DNA of 64,000 nt from an uncultured Lachnospiraceae bacterium (GTDB taxonomy: Bacteria > Bacillota > Clostridia > Lachnospirales > Lachnospiraceae): assembly GCA_947589315.1 (NCBI GenBank), contig CANPZE010000007.1, forward strand, positions 1-64,000, read 5' to 3'. The first letter of the stretch is position 1; every line of letters starts with the position of its first letter. Below, piece by piece: positions 28,479 to 47,737 of the stretch. The position numbers and the translations under genes were made by a program. The notes beneath the pieces are model-generated. The model made no database searches, was not told the origin of the DNA, and saw only the letters and a list, made by a program, of their open reading frames with translations.

Positions 28479-30380
28479 ATGGGAATATTTAGCAGACGTA
28501 TTGATATTAAGAAGGGGACGAAGGTTACCTACAGCGAGGATGACATCCGAAAGCTGGAAATGAATTTTAACCGGGAGTTCAGATCCCAGGAGGGGCCTGT
28601 TATCTATACCCCCTTCCGAAAAGAGCCGCCCCGGGCATATTTGACTCAGCTTCGGGAAATGGTGTTTGAGTCGGTCCTGGACAAGCATCTATATACCTTT
28701 AAACATCTTCTGGTGGTTCCCAACCCATACGGGGTGTCGGTACAGACGGCTCTGATACTGTTTAATACCTCAAAGGAATGCCGGGTAAGGTACCGGGTAC
28801 GGGGCAATACACCGGAGACTGATTTTGTGGGGGAGACAGGAATGAATACCCGCCACCGGGTACCCATCATGGGGCTGTATACTGGCAGGACTAATAAACT
28901 GGTATTAGAACTGCTGGATGAGGAGGGTGAGGTGATCCGGCGGAGGGATCTGACGATTTATGCCAGGGAGCTTCCCCTGAAGATGCGTCAGCTCGTTTCC
29001 CGGGTGGTTCATCAGGAAGCTTCCCAATTTCCGTTTCTGCTGGTCAATGGGCTTCGGTTCAATCCTATTGTGCTGGATCAGGATGGAGAGGTGCGGTATG
29101 CGTTGCAGCTCAAGACGAATAAGATTGGAATGATTCCCTTGCAAAACGGGCACTTTCTGTATCCGGATATTTCTGCCAGCCGTGCAGGAGAGGATGGGGC
29201 TCCCATGACCTGCCAATATCATGAGATGGATTATATGGGGAGGATTTACCGCACCTTTTATCTGGAGTATCCCATACGCCGGGCTGTGGCGCAGGACGGG
29301 GATTCCCTTTTCCTCGTGACCGCCTCTTCTTCAGAATATTCGGGAGACCGTATCCTGCAGGTGGATATGAATAGCGGAAAGGTCCGGAAGCAATGTGATC
29401 TGGTAGATATTCTGGGAGACCGTTACCGGGACCGCAGGGGATGGGTTCCTGTCACCCATATGGAATACCGGGACGGGAAACTTCTTTTAACATTAAAAAG
29501 GTTTCACACCATACTGCTGTTGGGATGGGAGGATTTATCGGTACAATGGATCCTGGCGCCAGAACAGATCTGGAAGGATACGCCGTTAGCCCCATATGTA
29601 CTCAGGCAGGAGGGAGAGATCGGGCTGTTACCGGAATACGCAGCATTTCAGGAGGGGACAGAGGAAAGGCTCCTGGTCTACAATATTCAGGATCCGGGCA
29701 GCATCCCGGTGGAGGGAGAAGCAGGAAGCCCTAAGTCCAGGGCGGCCCTCTATGAGATCGATGCCGGAAAAGGAACCTGCCGGGTCCTGGAACAGGTCAG
29801 GACGGCAAAGGCTGCGCACTTTGGGAAAGCGATTCCCGGGGAAGGCCGGATATTGGCGGCGTCCGGGCTGCTCCAGGAAAGGACGGAGAAACGGCGGGGG
29901 GTTATTGTGGAGGCAGACCTGGCTGCCGGAAAGGCGATCAACCGTTTCATTCTGCGCAGGGGCTTTGGCAATGTCTGGGAATTTACTCCTGATATCTCTT
30001 CCTATGGAACTCCGTTGGACAGGAAGGAGAATGTGATCCTGGGACAGCTGGAACCGCCGGAGAGATTCTGCGGCGAACTGCCGCCTCTTTCCGAGGAAAA
30101 GCTCAAGAAACGGTATTTTGGAAAGATCCATTTATGTGGAAGCCTGCTGCTGTTCCGCTTCTATCCGGGAATGATCCAGAGAGTATATCTGGTGGGGGAA
30201 AAGAATTCCTATGTCCAGGATTATTCCGGGCTGCTGCCCAGGCAGGTACGCAGATCCTTTGGGATCGCCCTGGGTCAGCTGGCCTGTGATGAGTATCGGA
30301 TCTTTGTAGAATATGACGGCAGTGTTTATCAGTTGAAAAACGAGGTCCGTATAGAGACGCAGAAAGATAAGCAACGCTAA
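28479..30380 (+). CDS. Cytoplasmic arylsulfotransferase (ASST)-family protein, probably catalytically altered
   Basis: 633 residues. Residues about 60-170 match the ASST N-terminal beta domain (NPYGVSVQTALILFNT, PIMGLYTGRTNKLVLELLDE); the rest resembles the ASST six-blade propeller (YHEMDYMGRIYRTFYLEYPI, RILQVDMNSGKVRKQCDL). Known ASSTs are exported and transfer sulfuryl groups between phenols through an active-site His. This protein has no signal peptide, and the places where I expect the conserved His-His, His-x-Asn and QHDA segments read YPIRRAV, GWVPVTH and LPEYAAF. An in-frame TAA just upstream fixes the start at or after 28479, yet no ribosome site precedes it. It heads the cysD-cysNC-cysQ cluster. 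Family likely; activity doubtful. Confidence 0.65.
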   Translation: MGIFSRRIDIKKGTKVTYSEDDIRKLEMNFNREFRSQEGPVIYTPFRKEPPRAYLTQLREMVFESVLDKHLYTFKHLLVVPNPYGVSVQTALILFNTSKECRVRYRVRGNTPETDFVGETGMNTRHRVPIMGLYTGRTNKLVLELLDEEGEVIRRRDLTIYARELPLKMRQLVSRVVHQEASQFPFLLVNGLRFNPIVLDQDGEVRYALQLKTNKIGMIPLQNGHFLYPDISASRAGEDGAPMTCQYHEMDYMGRIYRTFYLEYPIRRAVAQDGDSLFLVTASSSEYSGDRILQVDMNSGKVRKQCDLVDILGDRYRDRRGWVPVTHMEYRDGKLLLTLKRFHTILLLGWEDLSVQWILAPEQIWKDTPLAPYVLRQEGEIGLLPEYAAFQEGTEERLLVYNIQDPGSIPVEGEAGSPKSRAALYEIDAGKGTCRVLEQVRTAKAAHFGKAIPGEGRILAASGLLQERTEKRRGVIVEADLAAGKAINRFILRRGFGNVWEFTPDISSYGTPLDRKENVILGQLEPPERFCGELPPLSEEKLKKRYFGKIHLCGSLLLFRFYPGMIQRVYLVGEKNSYVQDYSGLLPRQVRRSFGIALGQLACDEYRIFVEYDGSVYQLKNEVRIETQKDKQR

Positions 30381-30405: not shown

Positions 30406-31305
30406 ATGAGTCAATTATCACACTTGGAGGAACTGGAGGCAGAGGCGATCTACATTATGCGCGAAGTAGCTGCAGAATGCGAGAAGCCGGTTATGTTGTA
30501 TTCGATAGGAAAGGACAGTTCGGTGATGCTTCATCTGGCATTGAAAGCATTTTATCCGGAGAAACCGCCGTTTCCCTTTCTTCATGTGGATACTACCTGG
30601 AAATTCCGGGAAATGATCGAGTTCCGTGACAAGATGGCTAAGAAGTACGGACTGGAAATGCTGGTGTATACCAATGAAGAAGGAGCAAAGCAGGGGATAA
30701 ACCCCTTTGACCATGGCTCTGCTTACACCGATATTATGAAGACCCAGGCTTTGAAGCAGGCATTGGATAAGTATCAGTTTACTGCGGCTTTTGGCGGCGG
30801 ACGCAGGGATGAGGAGAAGTCCAGGGCCAAGGAGAGGATTTTCTCCTTCCGGAATTCTTCTCATGGCTGGGATCCCAAGAACCAACGGCCGGAAATGTGG
30901 AAGCTGTTTAATACCAAGCTGTTCAAGGGGGAGGAAGTCCGGGTATTCCCTCTCTCCAACTGGACAGAGAAGGATATCTGGCAGTATATCCGTCAGGAGA
31001 ATATAGAGATCCCGTCTCTTTATTACGCTAAGGAACGCCCGGTAGTATACCGGGATGGCAATATCATTATGGTGGACGATGACCGTATGCGGCTGGAGCC
31101 GGGAGAGACTCCGGTTATGAAAAAGGTACGGTTCCGGACCCTGGGCTGTTATCCGCTGACTGGCGGCGTAGAGTCTGAGGCAGACACTTTGGATGCCATC
31201 ATTGAGGAAACACTGAGCGCAGTATCTTCCGAACGTACCAGCCGCGTGATCGACAATGAGGCGGCGGGAAGCATGGAAAGAAGAAAAAGAGAGGGGTATT
31301 TCTAA
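30406..31305 (+). CDS. cysD: Sulfate adenylyltransferase small subunit
   Basis: 299 residues. PP-loop type ATP pyrophosphatase with [18 protein letters not shown] near residue 35, [12 protein letters not shown] and the conserved [20 protein letters not shown] segment. With CysN it makes adenosine 5'-phosphosulfate (APS) from sulfate and ATP. AATGGAGGAAAACA precedes the ATG. cysNC begins 1 bp after its stop, and the ASST-like gene ends 25 bp before it. Confidence 0.96.
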
Positions 31306-31306
31306 T

Positions 31307-33133
31307 ATGCAAAGTTTACTGAAATTTATCACCTGTGGTAGTGTGGATGACGGAAAATCTACATTGATTGGGCATATGCTTTATGATGCGAAGCTGATCT
31401 TTGCAGATCAGGAAAAGGCCCTGGAATTAGACAGTAAGGTGGGAAGCCGCAATGGGCAGATCGACTACTCTCTGCTGCTGGACGGCCTGATGGCAGAGAG
31501 AGAGCAGGGAATCACGATTGATGTGGCGTACCGTTATTTTACAACGGAGCGCCGGAGCTTTATTGTAGCGGACACACCGGGACATGAAGAGTATACCAGG
31601 AACATGGCGGTAGGAGCTTCCTTTGCTGACCTGGCAGTGATCCTGGTCGATGCCTCCAAGGGGGTACTGGTGCAGACGAAACGCCATACCCGTATCTGTT
31701 CCCTCATGGGAATCCGCCACGTTGTGTATGCGGTAAATAAGATGGACCTGATCAATTATGATAAATATGATTTCCAGGATATCCAGCGTCAGATCAAGCA
31801 GATGGTATCAGAATATAATTTTGAGACCCTGCACATTATCCCGGTATCAGCTACCGAAGGCGACAATGTGACCAAGCCTTCCAACAAAATGGGCTGGTAC
31901 AAGGAAGGAACCCTCCTGGAGTATCTGGAAAATATTGATGTGACAGATCACTCAGACGAGACGGGCTTTGTAATGCCAGTACAGAGAGTGAGCCGCCCCG
32001 ACCATACCTTCCGTGGATTCCAGGGACAGATTGAAGTGGGAGGGATCTCTGTGGGGGATGAAGTGGTGTCTCTGCCCAGCGGGGAGAAGTCCCATGTTAA
32101 GAGTATCCTGAGGACCAATCAGGAAGTAACCACCGCAGGCAAAGGCGAGGCTGTAACGATCCAGCTCGAGGATGAGATTGATGTGTCCAGGGGCTGTATG
32201 CTGGCCAAGGATGTGAATCTCCATTGTGGCAAGATGTTTACCTCCCGCCTCCTGTGGATGGATGATTCCAATCTGGTAGCCGGTAAGAACTATTTCCTGA
32301 AGATCGGTACCAAGATGGTGCCCTGTGTGGTTATGAACATCAAGTACAAGGTGGATGTAAATGAAGGAAACCATGTGCAGACAGACCGCCTGTACAAGAA
32401 TGAGATTGCCTGCTGTGACATTTCCTGCGCAGACAAGATCGTTTATGATGAGTTTGCGCATCATAAAGAGCTGGGCGGATTTATTCTGATCGACCGAGTG
32501 ACCAACATGACTTCGGCCTGCGGTATCGTAGAACACTCTCTCCGCAGGGATGATAACCTGACCTGGCATACAATGGATATTACCCGTGATCTCCGGGCGC
32601 AGCAGAAGGGACAGAACCCGAAGACGATCTGGATGACGGGCCTGTCCGGAGCCGGTAAATCTACGCTGATCAATGAGGTAGAGAAGCGGCTTTTCGCCTT
32701 AGGCAAACATACAATGCTGCTGGATGGCGACAATGTACGTATGGGACTGAACCGGAACTTGGGCTTTAAGGAGCAGGATCGGATCGAGAACATCCGGCGT
32801 GTAGCTGAGGTGGCCAAATTGATGAATGATGCGGGCCTGATCGTCCTGACATCCTTTATCTCGCCTTTTGCCAGCGACCGTCTCAGGGCCAGAGAAATCA
32901 TTGGCGGGGATAACTTTATTGAAATTTATGTCAGCACTCCTCTCGAGGAATGTGAGAAGCGGGATGTAAAGGGGCTGTACAAGAAGGCGCGCGCCGGCGA
33001 AATCCCCAATTTCTCCGGTATCTCCAGCCCATATGAGCCGCCTAAGGATGCGGAAGTGGAGATCAATACCACAGGAAAGACTATAGAGGAGTCGGTGGAT
33101 TACATTATGGAGCAGCTGGAAAGCATACTGTAA
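31307..33133 (+). CDS. cysNC: Sulfate adenylyltransferase large subunit fused to APS kinase
   Basis: 608 residues from ATG 31307 (track start 31256 lies inside cysD). The N-terminal EF-Tu-like GTPase has CGSVDDGKSTLIGHML, ADTPGHEEYTRN and NKMDL; GTP hydrolysis drives APS formation with CysD. The C-terminal APS kinase (from about residue 435) has GLSGAGKST, LDGDNVRMGLNRNLGF, FISPF and the KARAGEIPNFSGISSPYE loop, so the fusion converts sulfate through APS to PAPS. PAPS serves sulfotransferases or assimilatory reduction; no reductase is in this window. Confidence 0.95.
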   Translation: MQSLLKFITCGSVDDGKSTLIGHMLYDAKLIFADQEKALELDSKVGSRNGQIDYSLLLDGLMAEREQGITIDVAYRYFTTERRSFIVADTPGHEEYTRNMAVGASFADLAVILVDASKGVLVQTKRHTRICSLMGIRHVVYAVNKMDLINYDKYDFQDIQRQIKQMVSEYNFETLHIIPVSATEGDNVTKPSNKMGWYKEGTLLEYLENIDVTDHSDETGFVMPVQRVSRPDHTFRGFQGQIEVGGISVGDEVVSLPSGEKSHVKSILRTNQEVTTAGKGEAVTIQLEDEIDVSRGCMLAKDVNLHCGKMFTSRLLWMDDSNLVAGKNYFLKIGTKMVPCVVMNIKYKVDVNEGNHVQTDRLYKNEIACCDISCADKIVYDEFAHHKELGGFILIDRVTNMTSACGIVEHSLRRDDNLTWHTMDITRDLRAQQKGQNPKTIWMTGLSGAGKSTLINEVEKRLFALGKHTMLLDGDNVRMGLNRNLGFKEQDRIENIRRVAEVAKLMNDAGLIVLTSFISPFASDRLRAREIIGGDNFIEIYVSTPLEECEKRDVKGLYKKARAGEIPNFSGISSPYEPPKDAEVEINTTGKTIEESVDYIMEQLESIL

Positions 33134-33205: not shown

Positions 33206-33235
33206 TCATATGAAAGAAGAAAGGACATGGATGGT

Positions 33236-34024
33236 ATGAATTTAGAAAGAGAGCTTCAGGTGGCAAAGGAGGCGGCAGTAAAGGCCGGCGCGGCGATCAT
33301 GGATGTTTATGAGAACGCTGAGGACATGGAGGTTACCTATAAGGACGGAGACATGCCGCTGACAGCAGCGGACAAGGCTTCCAACCGGATCATTGTAGAT
33401 GCTTTAAAAAAGGCTTTTCCGGAATACAGTATCTTGTCCGAGGAAGAAAAGGATGACAGGAGCCGGCTGGAAAATGACTATTGCTTTGTTGTAGATCCCC
33501 TGGATGGGACGAAGGAATTTATCAAGCGGAACGGTCAGTTTACCGTTAATATTGCATTGGCCTACCAGCATAAATCCATTATGGGCGTGATCTATGTCCC
33601 AACGGCTGGGGAACTGTATTACGCAGCGCAGGGCTATGGGGCCTATCTGGATACCCGGGAAGAGACCGGAAAGAAGCTGCAGGTATCGGACCGCACAGAT
33701 ATAAAAGAGCTGCGCATGGTCATGAGCAGCTCCCATGGCTGTGAACAGATGGACCGCCTGTTAGAAAAATATCAATTTAAAAATTTTGTCAAAATGGGAA
33801 GCTCCCTAAAAGGCTGCGTGATCGCAAAGGGAGAAGCAGAGGTATATTACCGCTTTAATCCCACAATGGAATGGGATACCGCAGCAATGCAGTGTATTGT
33901 AGAGGAGGCGGGAGCAATCTTCCGCCAGATGGATGACAGCCCGATGCTCTATAATCGGGAGGACAGCTTGAATGGAAAGGGATTTTATATCATTAACAGG
34001 GCAAAGAATAAGCTGGAATATTAA
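33236..34024 (+). CDS. cysQ: 3'(2'),5'-bisphosphate nucleotidase CysQ
   Basis: 262 residues from ATG 33236; ATG 33227 is in frame but only one or two bases after AAAGGA. Inositol monophosphatase-fold enzyme with the metal sites EE (residues about 67-68), DPLDGTKEFI and EWDTAAMQCIVEEAGA. It hydrolyses 3'-phosphoadenosine 5'-phosphate (PAP), the product left after PAPS-dependent sulfonation or reduction. Its place after cysNC supports real PAPS use in this cell. It is followed by a CHR transporter. Confidence 0.92.
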   Translation: MNLERELQVAKEAAVKAGAAIMDVYENAEDMEVTYKDGDMPLTAADKASNRIIVDALKKAFPEYSILSEEEKDDRSRLENDYCFVVDPLDGTKEFIKRNGQFTVNIALAYQHKSIMGVIYVPTAGELYYAAQGYGAYLDTREETGKKLQVSDRTDIKELRMVMSSSHGCEQMDRLLEKYQFKNFVKMGSSLKGCVIAKGEAEVYYRFNPTMEWDTAAMQCIVEEAGAIFRQMDDSPMLYNREDSLNGKGFYIINRAKNKLEY

Positions 34025-34079
34025 AAGCTTTTCAGGATGGACACCAGTGTAGGAACTATTGCAGGATGGAGATAGCAAT

Positions 34080-35585
34080 ATGAAAAAGGATAAAAACATG
34101 GCAGAGAAGGGCCAGGGCTGGGAAGACAAAAAGTCCCAGAGGAAGAAAGAATTTGGGATGATGGCTTCTCTATTAAAGATCGGCTGTATCGGCTTCGGAG
34201 GAGGGAGCGCTTTGATCCCGGTCATTGAAAAAGAGGTAGTGGAGGAGCAGAAGCTGGTAACAGAGGAAGAGTACAATAAAGATGTAGTGGTAGCCAGCAT
34301 CACACCCGGCGCCCTGCCTATGGAGATCGCTACCGGACTGGGCAAGCGGGCCTACGGTGTGGGCGGGATGATACTCTCTGCCAATATGATGGCTTTTCCC
34401 GGGGCTTTGGCCACTGTATTGTTATTGTCTGTTATGTCCAGGGTGAGCAGCTCCGTACTGGCCCAGATTGAGATCCTGTCCATGGGGATCTCTGCTTTTA
34501 TTGCCTGCCTTTTGACAGAGTATGCCCGAAAGACGTTGGCAGAGGCCAGGGCGGAGAGCAAAGGGAGATGGAAGCGGGCCGTAGTGATATTGGCCGGTGT
34601 TTTCCTGCTGTCAGGGGGGAAGGCAGTGTACAATATTCTTGGGATCAAGTCAGATCCTATATTCTGCCTGTCTACTTTACAGGTCCTGGGAATCGCCTTT
34701 TTTGGCATTTTGTATACCCGCTGTAAATTTACCAGGAAAAATGTATTAATAGCAGGAATCATTATTGCCATGTATATCTTTACTATCAGCCAGCCCTGGT
34801 TCGCTCTGGGATATCTGGAAATGGGGTTGAAGATCCTGATGGCAGTCTTGTCTGTATGGGGGCTTTATGGCAGTATTGCTGCCTCGGGCAAGAGGAAGAA
34901 GGTCTCCTGTGTCAGGCTGACAAAGGAGCTGGCGGCCTGGCTCCTTTTTATGCTTCTTTTGTCGGCTCCGGCGCTGGTCATAGGGAAAGAGCTGGTGGTA
35001 TTCCTGTCCCGGGGATTTGCCTCCTCCATTATGTCCTTTGGCGGAGGGGATGCCTATTTGTCTGTGGCAGACGGTATGTTCGTCCATTCTGGGATGATCC
35101 CCCAGAATGAGTTCTACGCCCATCTGGTCCCTCTGGTCAATCTGCTTCCCGGTTCCATCCTGTGCAAGACCCTGTCAGGGGTAGGGTATCTTCTGGGATA
35201 CGAAATGACCGGAAGTACAATGACAGGATACCTGGCAGCCCTGGCTGGATTTTCCAGCAGCGTCATGGCTTCCGGAGGTGTATTTTGCCTGGTCTACTAT
35301 ATTTATGAATGTTTTGAAAAGCTGGATGTATTTCGCCTGCTGAGCCGCTGGATCCGTCCGATCATCGCAGGGCTTTTACTGACTGTCATGTGTTCTCTGA
35401 TCTTTCAGAACCTCCAGACTGGCGCCAAACTGGGGCTGCATGGGATAACAGCCATGGGCGTTACCGTTCTGATCTATGGGCTGAATCTGGTTCTGCTCTA
35501 TGTGGGAAAGAAGAAAAATGGAACCTTGATTGCATTCTCTGCAATTACTGTGCTGATCCTGTGCAATCTCCTGACGGTATTGTAA
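34080..35585 (+). CDS. chrA: Fused two-domain CHR (chromate/sulfate) transporter
   Basis: 501 residues from ATG 34080, after GGATGGAG. Two homologous CHR domains: the first begins LLKIGCIGFGGGSALIPVIEKEVV with ITPGALPMEIA; the second has SFGGGDAYLSVADGMFV and LVNLLPGSILCKTLSG. About ten membrane segments are visible. The family (TC 2.A.51) is known for chromate efflux, and chromate mimics sulfate. Location 55 bp after cysQ suggests movement of sulfate or a related oxyanion; direction unknown. No other sulfate importer is present. Confidence 0.85.
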   Translation: MKKDKNMAEKGQGWEDKKSQRKKEFGMMASLLKIGCIGFGGGSALIPVIEKEVVEEQKLVTEEEYNKDVVVASITPGALPMEIATGLGKRAYGVGGMILSANMMAFPGALATVLLLSVMSRVSSSVLAQIEILSMGISAFIACLLTEYARKTLAEARAESKGRWKRAVVILAGVFLLSGGKAVYNILGIKSDPIFCLSTLQVLGIAFFGILYTRCKFTRKNVLIAGIIIAMYIFTISQPWFALGYLEMGLKILMAVLSVWGLYGSIAASGKRKKVSCVRLTKELAAWLLFMLLLSAPALVIGKELVVFLSRGFASSIMSFGGGDAYLSVADGMFVHSGMIPQNEFYAHLVPLVNLLPGSILCKTLSGVGYLLGYEMTGSTMTGYLAALAGFSSSVMASGGVFCLVYYIYECFEKLDVFRLLSRWIRPIIAGLLLTVMCSLIFQNLQTGAKLGLHGITAMGVTVLIYGLNLVLLYVGKKKNGTLIAFSAITVLILCNLLTVL

Positions 35586-41518: not shown

Positions 41519-41545
41519 TTGAAAAATATCTGTAAATCATATAAA
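41519..41545 (+). promoter_or_regulatory. Weak candidate efp promoter
   Basis: TTGAAA (41519-41524) and TATAAA (41540-41545) are separated by only 15 bp, which is short. It lies about 60 bp before efp. Confidence 0.3.
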
Positions 41546-41602
41546 CTAATCAAAGGATTGTGTGGATTTGACATCCGTGACTACATTAAGGAGGATTTTT
41601 TC

Positions 41603-42157
41603 ATGGTATCAGCAGGTGATTTCAGAAATGGTTTGACCATTGAAGTAGAAGGCAATGTGTACCAGGTTATGGAATTTCAGCATGTAAAGCCGGGTAAGGG
41701 AGCTGCTTTTGTCAGAACAAAGCTCAAGAACATTAAGAACGGAGGCGTGGTAGAGAAAACCTTCCGTCCAACAGAGAAGTGCCCACAGGCTCATATTGAA
41801 CGTGCCGATATGCAGTATCTGTACAGTGATGATATGTATCATTTCATGAATACGGAGACATATGACCAGGTTGATATGACAGCAGAGCAGGTGGGAGATT
41901 CCATGAAGTTTGTCAAGGAAAACGAAATGGTAAAGATGCTCTCCCACAACGGTCAGATTTTTGCAATTGAGCCTCCTCTGTTTGTAGAGCTGGCAGTGAC
42001 AGAGACAGAACCTGGATTTAAAGGAGATACAGCCACAGGAGCCAATAAGCCGGCTACTGTTGAGACAGGGGCTGTGGTTAATGTACCCCTGTTTGTAGAG
42101 ACAGGAGATGTGATCAGTATTGATACCCGTACAGGAGAATATCTGAAGCGCGTGTGA
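41603..42157 (+). CDS. efp: Translation elongation factor P
   Basis: 184 residues from ATG 41603 (AAGGAGG upstream; the track start 41519 is rejected). Three beta-barrel domains begin [38 protein letters not shown]. Lys in KPGKGAA (about residue 32) is the tip that in many bacteria is modified and reaches the peptidyl-transfer centre to relieve stalling at polyproline. No modification enzyme is in the window. Confidence 0.96.
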
Positions 42158-42192
42158 TCTGACGGAGACATCTTCGGTAAAAAAGGCGAACG

Positions 42193-42228
42193 CAGAGAGT
42201 TCTCATGATATTTTGTGAGGGCTCTCTG
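42193..42228 (+). terminator. Hairpin after efp
   Basis: CAGAGAG / CTCTCTG with inner CTCA / TGAG and a 10-base loop. The following TTAGTTATTG is only moderately T-rich. Confidence 0.45.
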
Positions 42229-42295
42229 TTAGTTATTGTCTTTTCCAGCCAGATGTACGATAAGGATCAGGATAAGATAAGATTTTGTAAGAAAA

Positions 42296-42323
42296 TTGAA
42301 AGAAATTCTTAAAATCTTATAAT
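42296..42323 (+). promoter_or_regulatory. Candidate upstream promoter of the sulfotransferase genes
   Basis: TTGAAA (42296-42301), 16 bp, TATAAT (42318-42323). A second possible -10, TACAAT at 42386-42391, lies closer to the gene and has no good -35, which would fit an activator-dependent promoter. Confidence 0.5.
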
Positions 42324-42350
42324 TGACACAGTATTGATATAAAGTTGACA
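42323..42350 (+). promoter_or_regulatory. Three TTGAYA direct repeats at 11-bp period
   Basis: TTGACA (42323-42328), TTGATA (42334-42339) and TTGACA (42345-42350), each separated by 5 bp. Hexamers in direct repeat once per helical turn are the pattern bound by OmpR/PhoB-family regulators (Pho-box style). They lie 36-63 bp upstream of the TACAAT -10 candidate and overlap the upstream TATAAT by one base. Confidence 0.5.
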
Positions 42351-42439
42351 CATTCCGTTGGTTAAATGGATGATGTTGGAAGAGATACAATAAATATCCT
42401 TTTCTATGGAATGTGCCTGATCAACAGAAAGGAAAAAGA

Positions 42440-43675
42440 ATGGGAATCAGCACAAGAGAAGAGCTTTTGCAGGCAGCAGACGGCAGTATGCCGGTCATTC
42501 TTTATGGGAAGGCTTCTTTGATCCGGATTATTCTTCGTTTCCTGGAACGGGAAGGGAAGAAAAAAGCCGTGGTTGGGGTCTGTTTTGCAGATACGGACCG
42601 CAAAGAGGGAAGTCTGGGAATCCCAATCTGCTCGCTGAAAGAGCTGGCAGAGTACCGGGAACAGGCTCAGGTACTTGTGGCGCTGGCCAGAGAGAAGCAG
42701 GAGAAAACGGCTTTGCAAAAGCTGGAGAAAAAGGGTTATCAGAAAAGGATATGTATTGAATACAACCTGTTGTCAGAGATTGGCAGCAGCGAGCATGTTC
42801 ATCTGGACTTTATCTGTGTCGGTTTTGTAAAATGTGGCACTACATCGCTGCAGGAGGCACTGATATTGAACCCTGATATATATCTGCCGAAGAAAAAAGA
42901 AACCTTGTATATGGGGTGGCGCAACCGTTTCGAGGATGCTCCTGAGAGATTTAACCGGATTTATTACAGCGATGTAAAAGAGGGGCAGACGGTAGGCAAT
43001 ATAGAACCCAGCTATCATGCAAATGCAGAGGGGATCTATGAATGCTTTGGCAGTGGCACCAAGGTTATCTTTATGGTGCGCAATCCTATGGATGCAACGT
43101 ATTCTTATTTTAAGATGCTGATGCGCAAAACGGAAGAGCTGCAGCAGGTCAAATATTACAAGCAGTACCATAAATTTGATGTGCGCATGTTCGACAACTA
43201 CATTTCTGACTACATTTTATCTGGCAAGGAGACACGTTTCCAGTATATGAAATGGATCAACCGTTATCTCCGCTTTTACGATAGGAGCCAGATCAAGGTG
43301 GTGTTCTTTGAGGATGTGATCCGGGAACCGGAAAAGACGCTGAATGAGATTCAGGAATTTATTGGCGTTAAAGCCAAATCATTTTCCTCCCTTCCCCATT
43401 CTAATGAAGGGAAGGAGGTCTCCAGGAACTATCTGAGCGCCAGGATCAACCGATGGCTGTACCGTAAGGACAGAGAGCTGCGGTACATATCTTCTCCCAA
43501 GAAGAAGACCAGGCAGAATCAAAGAAAGAAGCTGCTGCACAAATATACCCTGCTGGAAAACAGGGATAAGATGCTTCCAGAGAGCCGGAAAGTCCTTTTG
43601 GATCATTACATGGACAGTATCCATGAGCTGGAGGAATTTTGCGGCAGAGATCTGAAGGGAATGTGGTACGAATAG
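42440..43675 (+). CDS. Two-domain PAPS-type sulfotransferase (first paralogue)
   Basis: 411 residues from ATG 42440 (AAAGGA six bases upstream; the GTG 42413 has no site). Residues about 1-115 form a small Rossmann-like domain (PVILYGKASLIRIILRFLE, GIPICSLKELAEYREQAQV). The sulfotransferase domain follows: HLDFICVGFVKCGTTSL is the 5'-phosphosulfate loop, where Thr-Ser contact the sulfonate, and VIFMVRNPMDATYSYFKM is the 3'-phosphate motif. The residue usually Lys in GFPKxGTT is kept (VKCG). The acceptor is unknown; a paralogue and a teichoic-type polymerase follow, so a cell-surface glycan is likely. Confidence 0.85.
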   Translation: MGISTREELLQAADGSMPVILYGKASLIRIILRFLEREGKKKAVVGVCFADTDRKEGSLGIPICSLKELAEYREQAQVLVALAREKQEKTALQKLEKKGYQKRICIEYNLLSEIGSSEHVHLDFICVGFVKCGTTSLQEALILNPDIYLPKKKETLYMGWRNRFEDAPERFNRIYYSDVKEGQTVGNIEPSYHANAEGIYECFGSGTKVIFMVRNPMDATYSYFKMLMRKTEELQQVKYYKQYHKFDVRMFDNYISDYILSGKETRFQYMKWINRYLRFYDRSQIKVVFFEDVIREPEKTLNEIQEFIGVKAKSFSSLPHSNEGKEVSRNYLSARINRWLYRKDRELRYISSPKKKTRQNQRKKLLHKYTLLENRDKMLPESRKVLLDHYMDSIHELEEFCGRDLKGMWYE

Positions 43676-43775
43676 GCCAGGGAGGAATCCTTTGGCAGAT
43701 ATCATCCGTATAATATCCAGGATTTTGATTGATACTTGAGGGGTAGATGAAAATCTTAAGAAAGGTATTATATGG

Positions 43776-45008
43776 ATGGTTAAAAGCGAAGAGTCGTTAA
43801 AAGAACTGTTACAACACTATAACAGAGTGGTCGTATGCGGGCCCAGGGCCACAGTAACTATTATTTTAAGATGGTTCCGGCAGGAGGGCCTTCTGGAAAA
43901 GGTGATGGGAACCAGCCGTTTAGACAGCCGGAAGTCCCATACCACTTACCTGGAGTTAGAAGACAGGCCGTTGAATGAGTGGAGGCCCCAGCCGGATGCC
44001 GCCCTGCTGATGGTATGCCGGGATCCGGAAGAAAAGAGCCTTCTTCTGGAGAAGGCATGGCGTGGCTGGAGCGAGGAACAGATCGTGGATGTGGATTATC
44101 CCCTTCTTGCCTCTATGTCCTGGAGGGATCATGTAAAGTTAGATTTCCTCTGCGTTGGCTTTCCCAAGACAGGGACTACCTCCCTGCATGCGGCTTTACG
44201 CAAAAATAAAAGGATTTATTTGCCCAGGGAGAAGGAGACAAAATACGGCAATTGGAAGTATAGCTATCTGGACGCCCCGGAACGCTTCCGGGAAATGTAT
44301 TGCCAGAATATCCCCGAGGATAGTCTGTTTGGCGGGGTAGAGCCCAGTTATTTTCAAAAAGCCTCCTTTGTCTACGAGACTTACGGACCGGATGTAAAGC
44401 TGATCTTTATGCTGCGGAATCCGGCAGACGCTACCTATTCTTATTTTAAGATGATGATGCGGCGTAGTGTTGAAACAGAAATGAGGAAATACTATAGAAA
44501 ATACAGAAAATATTGTCCGGACATGTTCCAGGACTATATGCAGGATTTTACTTATTCTAACAAAGACCAGAGGTTCCAGTATGATATCTGGATTCGGGAA
44601 TATCTGAAATATTTCAGGAAAGAGCAGATGATGTTTCTTATTTTTGAAGAGGTGATCCGGGAACCGGAACGGATCCTGAATGAGGTGCAAAAATTTATCG
44701 GAGTGAAACCGAAAAAGTTTACAGAACTGCCTCATTCCAATTCCGGTAAGGAGGTTGCCAGGGACTATCTGTGCTACCGTATCAATGCCAAGCTTCAGCG
44801 GATGAAGCTCAACCGGAAGGAAGATGCGGATCCGAAGCAAAGAGAGCGTTTCCGGCAGTTTCAGAAGTGGGTGTGGAAATATACACTGATCGAAAACAAT
44901 GAGAAGATACCCGAGGCAGACAGGGAAGAATTGTTGGAATTTTATAAGCTTTCCATTCAGGAAACGGAAAGGCTGGTGGGTAAGAGCCTGGAAGGTCTAT
45001 GGTATTGA
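43776..45008 (+). CDS. Two-domain PAPS-type sulfotransferase (second paralogue)
   Basis: 410 residues. Same layout as its neighbour: a Rossmann-like N-terminal part (RVVVCGPRATVTIILRWFR) and a sulfotransferase domain with LDFLCVGFPKTGTTSLHAAL and LIFMLRNPADATYSYFKMMM, both PAPS motifs intact. The two proteins share RFQYxxWI, IFEEVIREPE-type and PHSNxGKEVxRxYL segments, showing an old tandem duplication with clear divergence; they may sulfate different positions. Weak start site (AAAGG). The 100-bp gap before it has no terminator. The next gene starts 23 bp later. Confidence 0.86.
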   Translation: MVKSEESLKELLQHYNRVVVCGPRATVTIILRWFRQEGLLEKVMGTSRLDSRKSHTTYLELEDRPLNEWRPQPDAALLMVCRDPEEKSLLLEKAWRGWSEEQIVDVDYPLLASMSWRDHVKLDFLCVGFPKTGTTSLHAALRKNKRIYLPREKETKYGNWKYSYLDAPERFREMYCQNIPEDSLFGGVEPSYFQKASFVYETYGPDVKLIFMLRNPADATYSYFKMMMRRSVETEMRKYYRKYRKYCPDMFQDYMQDFTYSNKDQRFQYDIWIREYLKYFRKEQMMFLIFEEVIREPERILNEVQKFIGVKPKKFTELPHSNSGKEVARDYLCYRINAKLQRMKLNRKEDADPKQRERFRQFQKWVWKYTLIENNEKIPEADREELLEFYKLSIQETERLVGKSLEGLWY

Positions 45009-45031
45009 CAGGAGAATATGAGGAGTGACCC

Positions 45032-46888
45032 ATGAGTTATGATGTTGCAATCAACCAATTAAAGATTGAAGGGAATAAGCTGGAACTGGCTGTCAGTGTG
45101 CGGGGGCAGTGGAACCACAAGGTGAGGGATCCCAAACTGACAGTAGTATTTGACAATGGAGAACAGAACAGAAGGCTGCCTCTCCGGGTGCGTTATTACC
45201 GGAAGCAGGAGGATGGGACCTTCTATCTGTTGGGATACAGCAATTACCTGGTATCCTTTTTGTTTTACCAACAGCCTAAGAATAAAAGCTTTCATCTTAG
45301 CCTGGAGCTGATCTATGGTACGGAATTAACTGAGAGGCTGCCCTTCCAGATTGATCTGGAAGACGAGCGGGCCCAGCAGATCCTGGAAATGTATACAAAG
45401 GATAAGGCGCTGGAGTATCAGGTCTCTTCAGAGGAAGGAGAAGAGGAGGAGCCGAAGGAGATCCTTTATGATATTGCCCAGGCATCGGATCGCCGCAGTG
45501 TGGTGTTCACAGCCAAACCGGGACAGGAGGCTAAATTTCTGGACCATCCGGTGCAGGACTGGATAAGGAAGCTGGCGGGCGGTCTTTGGAAGCTGATCCT
45601 TTTTGTAGTGTCTATCGGCCTGCTGCCCTTCTTCTTTGTGGAAGCCTTGCTGACGCTGGGCGGCTGCCTGCCCCGGCATAAGAATATCCCCGACAAGGGA
45701 ATCGTGTATATTCTGAAATATATGCGCTCCAAAATGGAGTGGTTCTCTGGCAAGAGAATAGGCATCCTTGCCGCCAAGCTGAGCTGTATGCAGATGGTCC
45801 ATTGGCTTGCCTGCCATCTGCCGCTGAAGAAGAATCGGATCGCATTTCTGTCCAATCGCCGGAATGACCTGAGCGGCAATTTTGAATTTGTCGATGTGCT
45901 GTTAAAAAAGAATCCCAAATGGGAGTTGAAATATGTTCTGGACAACCGGGAGATCAAGTATATGGGCTTTGCCAATATGCTGAAGATGGGATATTATCTG
46001 GGCAATGCCAAGGTGGTGCTGATTGATGATTACAATGAATTGTACTTTAAGCTGCCAAGGAGAGAGGGGACCAGTTTGATCCAGCTGTGGCATGCCTGCG
46101 GCGCATTTAAGACCTTTGGCTGCAGCCGTCTGGGACGGCCCGGCGGACAGGGACAGCGCAGCAAAAACCATAGAAGTTATTCTTATGCCACTGTCAGTTC
46201 CCAGAATATTGCCCGGTTCTATGCCGAGGGCTTTGGAATCTCACTGGAAAAAGTAGCGGCTACCGGGGTTCCCCGCACCGATGTCTTTTTTGATGAAGGA
46301 TACAAAAAGAAAGTAACAGAGGAATTTTACAGCGCTTATCCCCAACTGAAGGATAAGAAGATCCTGCTTTTTGCTCCCACTTTCCGGGGAAATGGAAAGC
46401 TCAGCGGCTATTATCCGGTTAATAAGCTGGATGTGAACCGGCTGTATGAGGATCTGCAGGAGGAATATGCGATCATTGTCAAGCACCATCCTTTTGTGCA
46501 GAACCGCTGCCCTATTAAGAAAAAATATAGGGATTACATCATTGATCTTTCTGAGAATTCAGAACTGAACGATCTGCTTTTTGTGACAGATGTACTGGTC
46601 ACAGACTATTCCTCTGTGGTATTTGAGGCCTCTTTACTGGACATACCGATCCTGCTTTATGCTTTTGACATGGAAGAATACATTTCCACGCGGGGCTTCT
46701 ATTTTGAATTTGAAGAAATGGCCCCAGGTAATATCCTCCATACCTATCAGGAGCTGGCAGATGCCATTGGTCGGCAGGATTGGCAGAAGGATAAGCTGGG
46801 GCAGTTCCGGGATTACTTCTTTGACCATCTGGATGGGAAATCTTCCCAGAGGACTGTGGAACTCATTGAAAGCTGCATGGAAGATTAA
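45032..46888 (+). CDS. CDP-glycerol:glycerophosphotransferase-family (TagF/TagB-like) polymer enzyme
   Basis: 618 residues. N-terminal beta-rich domain (about 1-110), an acidic linker (SSEEGEEEEPKE) and a membrane-associated hydrophobic segment (about 187-210, LILFVVSIGLLPFFFVEALL). The C-terminal GT-B-type domain has QLWHACGAFKTFG, FAPTFRG, VKHHPF and LVTDYSSVVFEA, the signatures of teichoic-acid glycerol/ribitol phosphotransferases. It probably builds or primes a poly(polyol-phosphate) chain at the inner membrane face. Directly follows two sulfotransferases, pointing to a sulfated surface polymer. It overlaps the convergent aroE by 4 bp at the tails. Confidence 0.85.
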   Translation: MSYDVAINQLKIEGNKLELAVSVRGQWNHKVRDPKLTVVFDNGEQNRRLPLRVRYYRKQEDGTFYLLGYSNYLVSFLFYQQPKNKSFHLSLELIYGTELTERLPFQIDLEDERAQQILEMYTKDKALEYQVSSEEGEEEEPKEILYDIAQASDRRSVVFTAKPGQEAKFLDHPVQDWIRKLAGGLWKLILFVVSIGLLPFFFVEALLTLGGCLPRHKNIPDKGIVYILKYMRSKMEWFSGKRIGILAAKLSCMQMVHWLACHLPLKKNRIAFLSNRRNDLSGNFEFVDVLLKKNPKWELKYVLDNREIKYMGFANMLKMGYYLGNAKVVLIDDYNELYFKLPRREGTSLIQLWHACGAFKTFGCSRLGRPGGQGQRSKNHRSYSYATVSSQNIARFYAEGFGISLEKVAATGVPRTDVFFDEGYKKKVTEEFYSAYPQLKDKKILLFAPTFRGNGKLSGYYPVNKLDVNRLYEDLQEEYAIIVKHHPFVQNRCPIKKKYRDYIIDLSENSELNDLLFVTDVLVTDYSSVVFEASLLDIPILLYAFDMEEYISTRGFYFEFEEMAPGNILHTYQELADAIGRQDWQKDKLGQFRDYFFDHLDGKSSQRTVELIESCMED

Positions 46889-47652
46889 GCCGTCTTCCCT
46901 GCGGCGATCTGCCGGACAATTTCCTGGATCCTGTCCTCTTCCAGGCTGGTATCCAGGAAGAATTCCACCGCATACAAGGCCTGGGCTACCAGCATTTCCA
47001 GGCCGGTCACGCCTTTGATCCCTAATTCCCTGGCCTGGGCAGTGAGCTTAGTCTCCAGGGGATTATAAATGATATCCAGGACAGCTTCACAGGAAGTAAA
47101 GGCGGCCAGATCCAGCGGGGAGGCATCTATATCAGGGAACATGCCTACCGGCGTGGTATTTACGATGATCTGGGCGTCTGTGTGGTTCTGATAGCAATCT
47201 TCATAAGTAATGGTTTTTTCACTGATACGCCGGGAGACCAGCAGGATCTCTCCGGCCTTTTCTTTTTTCAGGACGGCGGTTATTGCTTTCGAGGCCCCTC
47301 CATTTCCCAATACAAGACATTTTTTGCCTTCGATGGCAATCTGATTCTTCTTCACCATATAAAGGAAACCGGAAAAGTCAGTATTATGCCCGATCAGCCG
47401 CCCATTTCGGTTTACGATCGTATTGACGGCCCCAATGGCGCGGGCATTGTCGTCCAGTTCGTCCAGATAGGGGATCACTTCCTGCTTGTAAGGAATTGTT
47501 ACATTGATCGCCCGGAAATCACGTTGTTCCAGGAAGCTTTTCAGCTCCTGCCGGGGCAGGGGATGAAGGGTATAGGTATAGTCTGCCAGCTGTTCGTGGA
47601 TCTCTTTGGAAAAGCTGTGTCCCAGTTTTTCCCCAATCAGTCCGTATTCCAT
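46885..47652 (-). CDS. aroE: Shikimate 5-dehydrogenase
   Basis: 255 residues from the ATG at 47652, five bases after GGGAGG on the - strand; the track start at 47673 was rejected. Substrate residues in GLIGEKLGHSFSKEIH, NVTIPYK (catalytic Lys) and HNTDFSGF; NADP site LGNGGASKAI. Reduces 3-dehydroshikimate to shikimate, completing the step between aroD and aroK encoded 6 kb to the left. Divergent from spoIIIAA and tail-to-tail with the polymer enzyme gene. Confidence 0.95.
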   Translation of the reverse strand: MEYGLIGEKLGHSFSKEIHEQLADYTYTLHPLPRQELKSFLEQRDFRAINVTIPYKQEVIPYLDELDDNARAIGAVNTIVNRNGRLIGHNTDFSGFLYMVKKNQIAIEGKKCLVLGNGGASKAITAVLKKEKAGEILLVSRRISEKTITYEDCYQNHTDAQIIVNTTPVGMFPDIDASPLDLAAFTSCEAVLDIIYNPLETKLTAQARELGIKGVTGLEMLVAQALYAVEFFLDTSLEEDRIQEIVRQIAAGKTA

Positions 47653-47737
47653 AATAACCTCCCATGTATTCACATATTTTTTTCTATAATACCGTATTTC
47701 TTTTTAAATAGCAATTTTTCAAAGTTTCTCCCTTCCA

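Follow-up and report, generated by a model that had tools for sequence, protein, structure and literature searches.

In the stretch of DNA analyzed here (64,000 nucleotides of an uncultured Lachnospiraceae bacterium; hereafter the window), two PAPS-type sulfotransferase genes (ST1 and ST2) and a gene for a TarL-like CDP-polyol phosphotransferase are arranged head to tail on the same strand between efp and aroE, and a set of genes for PAPS synthesis and PAP removal is located 7 kb upstream of ST1. On balance, these genes appear to form a PAPS-fed module that sulfates a surface glycan. This glycan may be, but is not shown to be, the product of the TarL-like enzyme; the activities, the acceptor, and the role of the polymerase are all predicted from sequence. 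The PAPS genes 7 kb away and the two PAPS-type sulfotransferases together make it very probable that this bacterium carries out sulfation, a surface polymer being one possible target.

efp (41519–42157, forward strand) and aroE (46885–47673, reverse strand) are the conserved left and right flanks of the site. Behind efp, a scan for consensus sequences only found a terminator-like hairpin (42192–42229, forward strand) and a sigma-70-like promoter (TTGAAA-16-TATAAT; 42296–42323, forward strand; 11/12 consensus matches), a candidate start of the three-gene unit. Since 12 promoter-like sites turned up in the 5 kb scanned where 7.1 were expected, this promoter is no more than suggestive. ST1 (42440–43675), ST2 (43776–45008; 410 aa), and the TarL-like gene (45032–46888; 618 aa) follow on the forward strand with intergenic gaps of 100 bp (ST1–ST2) and 23 bp (ST2–TarL-like gene). 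ST1 encodes 411 aa from ATG 42440 or 420 aa from the listed GTG 42413; ATG 42440, which is preceded by an aaagga-like ribosome site, is probably the start. The first-pass annotation described tandem sulfotransferases directly before a teichoic-type polymerase, and this arrangement was borne out; the three genes are a probable single transcription unit.

ST1 and ST2 showed 56 and 49 bits, respectively, to Sulfotransfer_1 (PF00685; cut-off, 22 bits) and 44 and 53 bits to Sulfotransfer_3 (PF13469; cut-off, 27 bits), and thus belong to these families (E-values of 4e-15 for ST1 with Sulfotransfer_1 and 6e-14 for ST2 with Sulfotransfer_3). Both have the 5′ and 3′ phosphate-binding motifs and a catalytic-type glutamate, and the PAPS motifs quoted earlier for the pair (GFVKCGTTSL and GFPKTGTTSL) are correct. 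K131, G133, T134, T135, S136, R214, and S222 of the PAPS site and E154, the presumed catalytic Glu (all ST2 numbering), did not vary among ten homologues; in the alignment, E154 corresponds to the Glu in the QEIHFF stretch of heparan-sulfate 3-O-sulfotransferases (3-OSTs). The structure model of ST2 was confident (pLDDT 85.2), and its best matches among solved structures were NDST1, an Alicyclobacillus sulfotransferase (3rnl), and 3-OSTs; the majority of these matches are polysaccharide-acting enzymes. Overall, ST1 and ST2 are very likely PAPS sulfotransferases. The added N-terminal domain noted in the first-pass annotation is also real. It comprises ca. 120 residues, which form alternating strands and helices (alpha/beta) in the ST2 model (pLDDT roughly 70–91 per block) and match no known family above threshold, and a sub-threshold match of ST1 to NeuD is the sole hint of its identity. 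Homology with the N-terminal part of FkbM-type proteins was not detected, nor did profile comparison detect homology between this domain and that of the sulfotransferases of another family genome, G060.

The first-pass annotation attributed the ST1–ST2 pair to duplication followed by divergence. ST1 shares 60% identity with a third copy in the same genome (ST3, contig C25) and 40% with ST2. In the tree, ST1 was sister to ST3 (93/90) and near a relative at locus L052 (92/96), and ST2 branched apart. This grouping rules out a recent tandem duplication and does not support divergence of the pair at the site; the two acceptor positions proposed from it are therefore only a guess. The third-position GC of the sulfotransferase genes was ordinary, with no foreign base composition marking recent acquisition. 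ST3 and the L052 relative are located near proS, with no adjoining polymer genes in the stretches read. A fourth sulfotransferase, which has a single domain, was found at L026:8629-9447 in a glycan-type cluster near a flagellar-cap-like gene; a flagellar glycan as its acceptor is a guess.

The PAPS block, which the first-pass annotation did not mention, consists of cysD (30406–31305; ATP sulfurylase small subunit), cysNC (31256–33133; ATP sulfurylase large subunit fused with APS kinase), and cysQ (33227–34024; 3′(2′),5′-bisphosphate nucleotidase, TIGR01331 above cut-off), all on the forward strand. An ASST-like gene (28479–30380) heads the block and a gene for a CHR-family ("chromate") transporter (34059–35585; 508 aa) follows it, both on the same strand. 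ATP sulfurylase, APS kinase, and CysQ are thus all present by gene content, and no APS kinase besides this CysNC was found in the genome, which is 93% complete. CysD and CysNC would make PAPS for ST1 and ST2, and CysQ would remove PAP. Recurrence of the CHR-family transporter gene beside cysD-cysNC in several family genomes suggests sulfate transport, and this candidate transporter may import sulfate for the block.

Contig C1 of the same genome carries genes for AprA and a second CysD, for a CysN that lacks an APS-kinase match in its C-terminal tail, for a MET17-like enzyme, and for a protein of the sulfite-reductase type. Sulfate reduction can therefore run via APS, by way of APS reductase, and need not pass through PAPS. 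The PF01507 matches in the genome (93% complete) were the two CysDs and one atypical gene on contig C12 beside a ParB-like gene, with no evident CysH among them. Since reduction is possible via APS, sulfation appears to be the purpose of PAPS synthesis, and from the gene content the PAPS supply looks reserved for that use and separate from assimilation. An assimilation-type cluster with AprA, CysD, and CysN, the last having a C-terminal tail without an APS-kinase match, was observed at L094:4007-10688.

To assess distribution, family genomes were searched with the ST2 protein, which matched in 6 of 200 genomes including its own, and with a ten-row sulfotransferase alignment, which matched in 8 of 397. 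Among the matches listed, two-domain sulfotransferases were found only in the genome of the window (G000) and in G060, that is, close two-domain homologues in one of the 396 other family genomes sampled. A close-relative scan of a named genome collection returned nothing with ST2 alone and ten loci with the alignment. In the 200-genome sample, all six sulfotransferase genomes had a strong APS kinase match versus 24 of the 194 others (Fisher p = 7e-6, a statistic that ignores relatedness), and the sulfotransferase gene was close to the APS-kinase gene in the five besides our own (G028, G060, G091, G130, and G198). The PAPS-dependent sulfation proposed in the first-pass annotation is strongly supported by the upstream cysD/cysNC/cysQ genes, by homologues elsewhere that adjoin cysD-cysNC, and by an assimilation route that does not need PAPS. 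For the G130 sulfotransferase, located at L034:9184-10125 beside PAPS genes, the search with a protein query reported a single in-frame TGA and the profile search none.

The neighborhoods of these homologues bear on the acceptor. In both G060 and L055, two-domain sulfotransferase genes stand as a tandem of three immediately next to cysD-cysNC-cysQ, and those of G060 lie within a surface-polysaccharide cluster containing sugar-nucleotide, epimerase, and glycosyltransferase-type genes; no PF04464 (polymerase family) gene was found near either three-gene locus in the stretches read. The only other two-domain locus with a nearby PF04464 gene is L053, a 9.9-kb contig that carries the end of cysNC, a CHR transporter gene, a two-domain sulfotransferase gene, and, ca. 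2 kb from the latter, the PF04464 gene. In two congeners (G200 and G201), the TarL-like gene occupies the same efp–aroE site without a sulfotransferase gene, and no PF13469 match was found in either genome (90% and 80% complete, respectively). The polymerase is therefore not dependent on the sulfotransferases. The latter look like later additions to a site that the polymerase already occupied in the genus, although among its three species arrival and loss are indistinguishable. The three genes are thus largely not kept together in relatives, an outcome that the first-pass annotation itself named as refuting its proposal and that weakens the teichoic reading; one contig, L053, gives partial support.

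The polymerase showed 288.9 bits (7e-86) to Glyphos_transf (PF04464), so its catalytic domain belongs to this family. Its best NCBIfam model was that of TarL (NF041713), with 355.5 bits; this does not reach the 1000-bit equivalog cut-off, and we therefore call the protein TarL-like, not TarL. The catalytic part begins at about residue 260. The N-terminal region of ca. 240 residues with one hydrophobic segment (residues 188–206) exists as the first-pass annotation described, but it is not unusual: it recurs in TarL-like proteins of G164, G074, and G021 and partly in a paralogue on contig C27 of the same genome. The structure model was unusable (pLDDT 35.6). The G164 relative, which shares 54% identity over the catalytic part, is encoded next to a D-ribitol-5-phosphate cytidylyltransferase gene and an alcohol dehydrogenase gene, and the activity of the window enzyme is predicted from this neighborhood and from its similarity to TarL. 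As regards genes for CDP-ribitol synthesis (TarI/TarJ), an IspD-like protein on contig C53 matched the D-ribitol-5-phosphate model weakly, with only 36 bits. A second TarL-like gene lies at L027:12104-15958 with a glycosyltransferase gene and a TarF-like gene, and has CheV-like and subtilase-like neighbors; CheV-like and subtilase-like genes are also found between the sulfotransferase and PF04464 genes of L053.

Taken together, ST1 and ST2 would be cytosolic sulfotransferases that depend on PAPS and belong to the carbohydrate-acting type, and their acceptor would most likely be a cell-surface glycan or a polymer precursor, modified before export. We lean toward a surface glycan, in line with the polysaccharide cluster around the G060 sulfotransferase genes. 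Probable co-transcription with the TarL-like gene makes either its polyol-phosphate polymer or a sugar-bearing lipid that it extends a plausible acceptor. The first-pass annotation envisaged a sulfated wall teichoic-like polymer or glycan; sulfation by PAPS and a surface glycan are retained from this, and the evidence falls short of establishing a teichoic-like polymer.

A narrower version of the surface-glycan explanation, compatible with it, is a single pathway in which a polyol-phosphate wall polymer is built by the TarL-like enzyme and sulfated by ST1 and ST2, yielding a sulfated teichoic acid. The 23-bp gap and shared strand of ST2 and the polymerase gene with one candidate promoter, the cytidylyltransferase-containing clusters in which TarL-like relatives occur, and the pairing in L053 are in its favor. 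However, the congeners retain the polymerase without sulfotransferases, no PF04464 gene appears in the parts of the G060 and L055 clusters that were read, and no sulfated teichoic acid was found described in the open-licence papers searched. We therefore regard this pathway as a tentative possibility. It would be equally speculative to credit a Gram-positive gut-type bacterium with a sulfated poly(polyol phosphate) wall teichoic acid produced by two-domain sulfotransferases that are co-expressed with a TarL-like polymerase and served by a PAPS block apart from assimilation.

Alternatively, the sulfotransferases may act on an unrelated acceptor, such as a lipid, a small molecule, a flagellar glycan, or a different surface polysaccharide, and may adjoin the polymerase gene only because efp–aroE is an insertion site. 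The content of this site does vary between species, with a flavodoxin gene in G200 and the same gene plus integrase- and phage-like genes in G201; ST3 is located elsewhere, beside unrelated genes; and single-domain sulfotransferase genes follow PAPS genes without a polymerase gene in G091, G198, and G028. On the other hand, the tight gap between ST2 and the polymerase gene argues for co-expression, and the sulfotransferase fold is closest to polysaccharide-acting enzymes. We regard an unrelated acceptor as likewise a tentative possibility.

The ASST-like protein has no evident signal peptide and no hydrophobic segment. The positions of His356 and His436 of the Escherichia coli ASST are apparently lost in it, and seemingly kept in a relative in G082; the stretch corresponding to His436 of canonical arylsulfate sulfotransferases (PF05935) has no histidine, although the alignment is weak there. 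The gene also heads the PAPS block in G200, G201, and G192. Because the block is present in two congeners that lack sulfotransferases, it probably did not arise to serve these enzymes. That it mainly feeds the ASST-like protein, with ST1 and ST2 as minor or occasional users, would suit the joint presence of the ASST-like, cysD, cysNC, cysQ, and CHR transporter genes in both congeners, which have no PF13469 sulfotransferases, and of the ASST-like gene with cysD-cysNC-cysQ in G192, but is very unlikely, as the ASSTs known to date do not depend on PAPS (PMC13426309) and this protein has apparently lost the sulfohistidine position that is reported to be conserved in all of them.

If surface polymers of some Lachnospiraceae carry sulfate, this would add a charged modification to those known for Gram-positive walls, one that we did not find described in the open-licence literature, and would alter how such bacteria appear to host lectins, phages, and mucus-degrading neighbors. 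The gene content also points to a PAPS supply separate from assimilation in these bacteria, which is directly testable.

ST1 and ST2 have the fold, the PAPS-site motifs, and the aligned glutamate in common with the heparan-sulfate sulfotransferases (the sulfotransferase domain of NDST1 and the 3-OST family) and 3rnl. In contrast to these enzymes, with which they share just 14–19% identity by structure alignment, they carry the extra N-terminal alpha/beta domain of ca. 120 residues. The TarL-like enzyme shares its catalytic part with TarL, the ribitol-phosphate teichoic acid polymerase (8va1; NF041713), whereas its N-terminal part has no sequence alignment to TarL and no cytidylyltransferase, dehydrogenase, or TagGH-type transporter gene is found beside it in the window. 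In bacterial clusters for sulfated polysaccharides, such as xss for synechan (PMC8205485, PMC13125312) and those for marine capsules (PMC11641403, PMC11766843), sulfotransferase genes are joined to polymer-building genes, as they are here. The hosts of those clusters are cyanobacteria or Gram-negative bacteria whose polysaccharide export machinery is of the ordinary kind, whereas the sulfotransferase genes described here belong to a member of the Lachnospiraceae and have a TarL-like gene as their neighbor.
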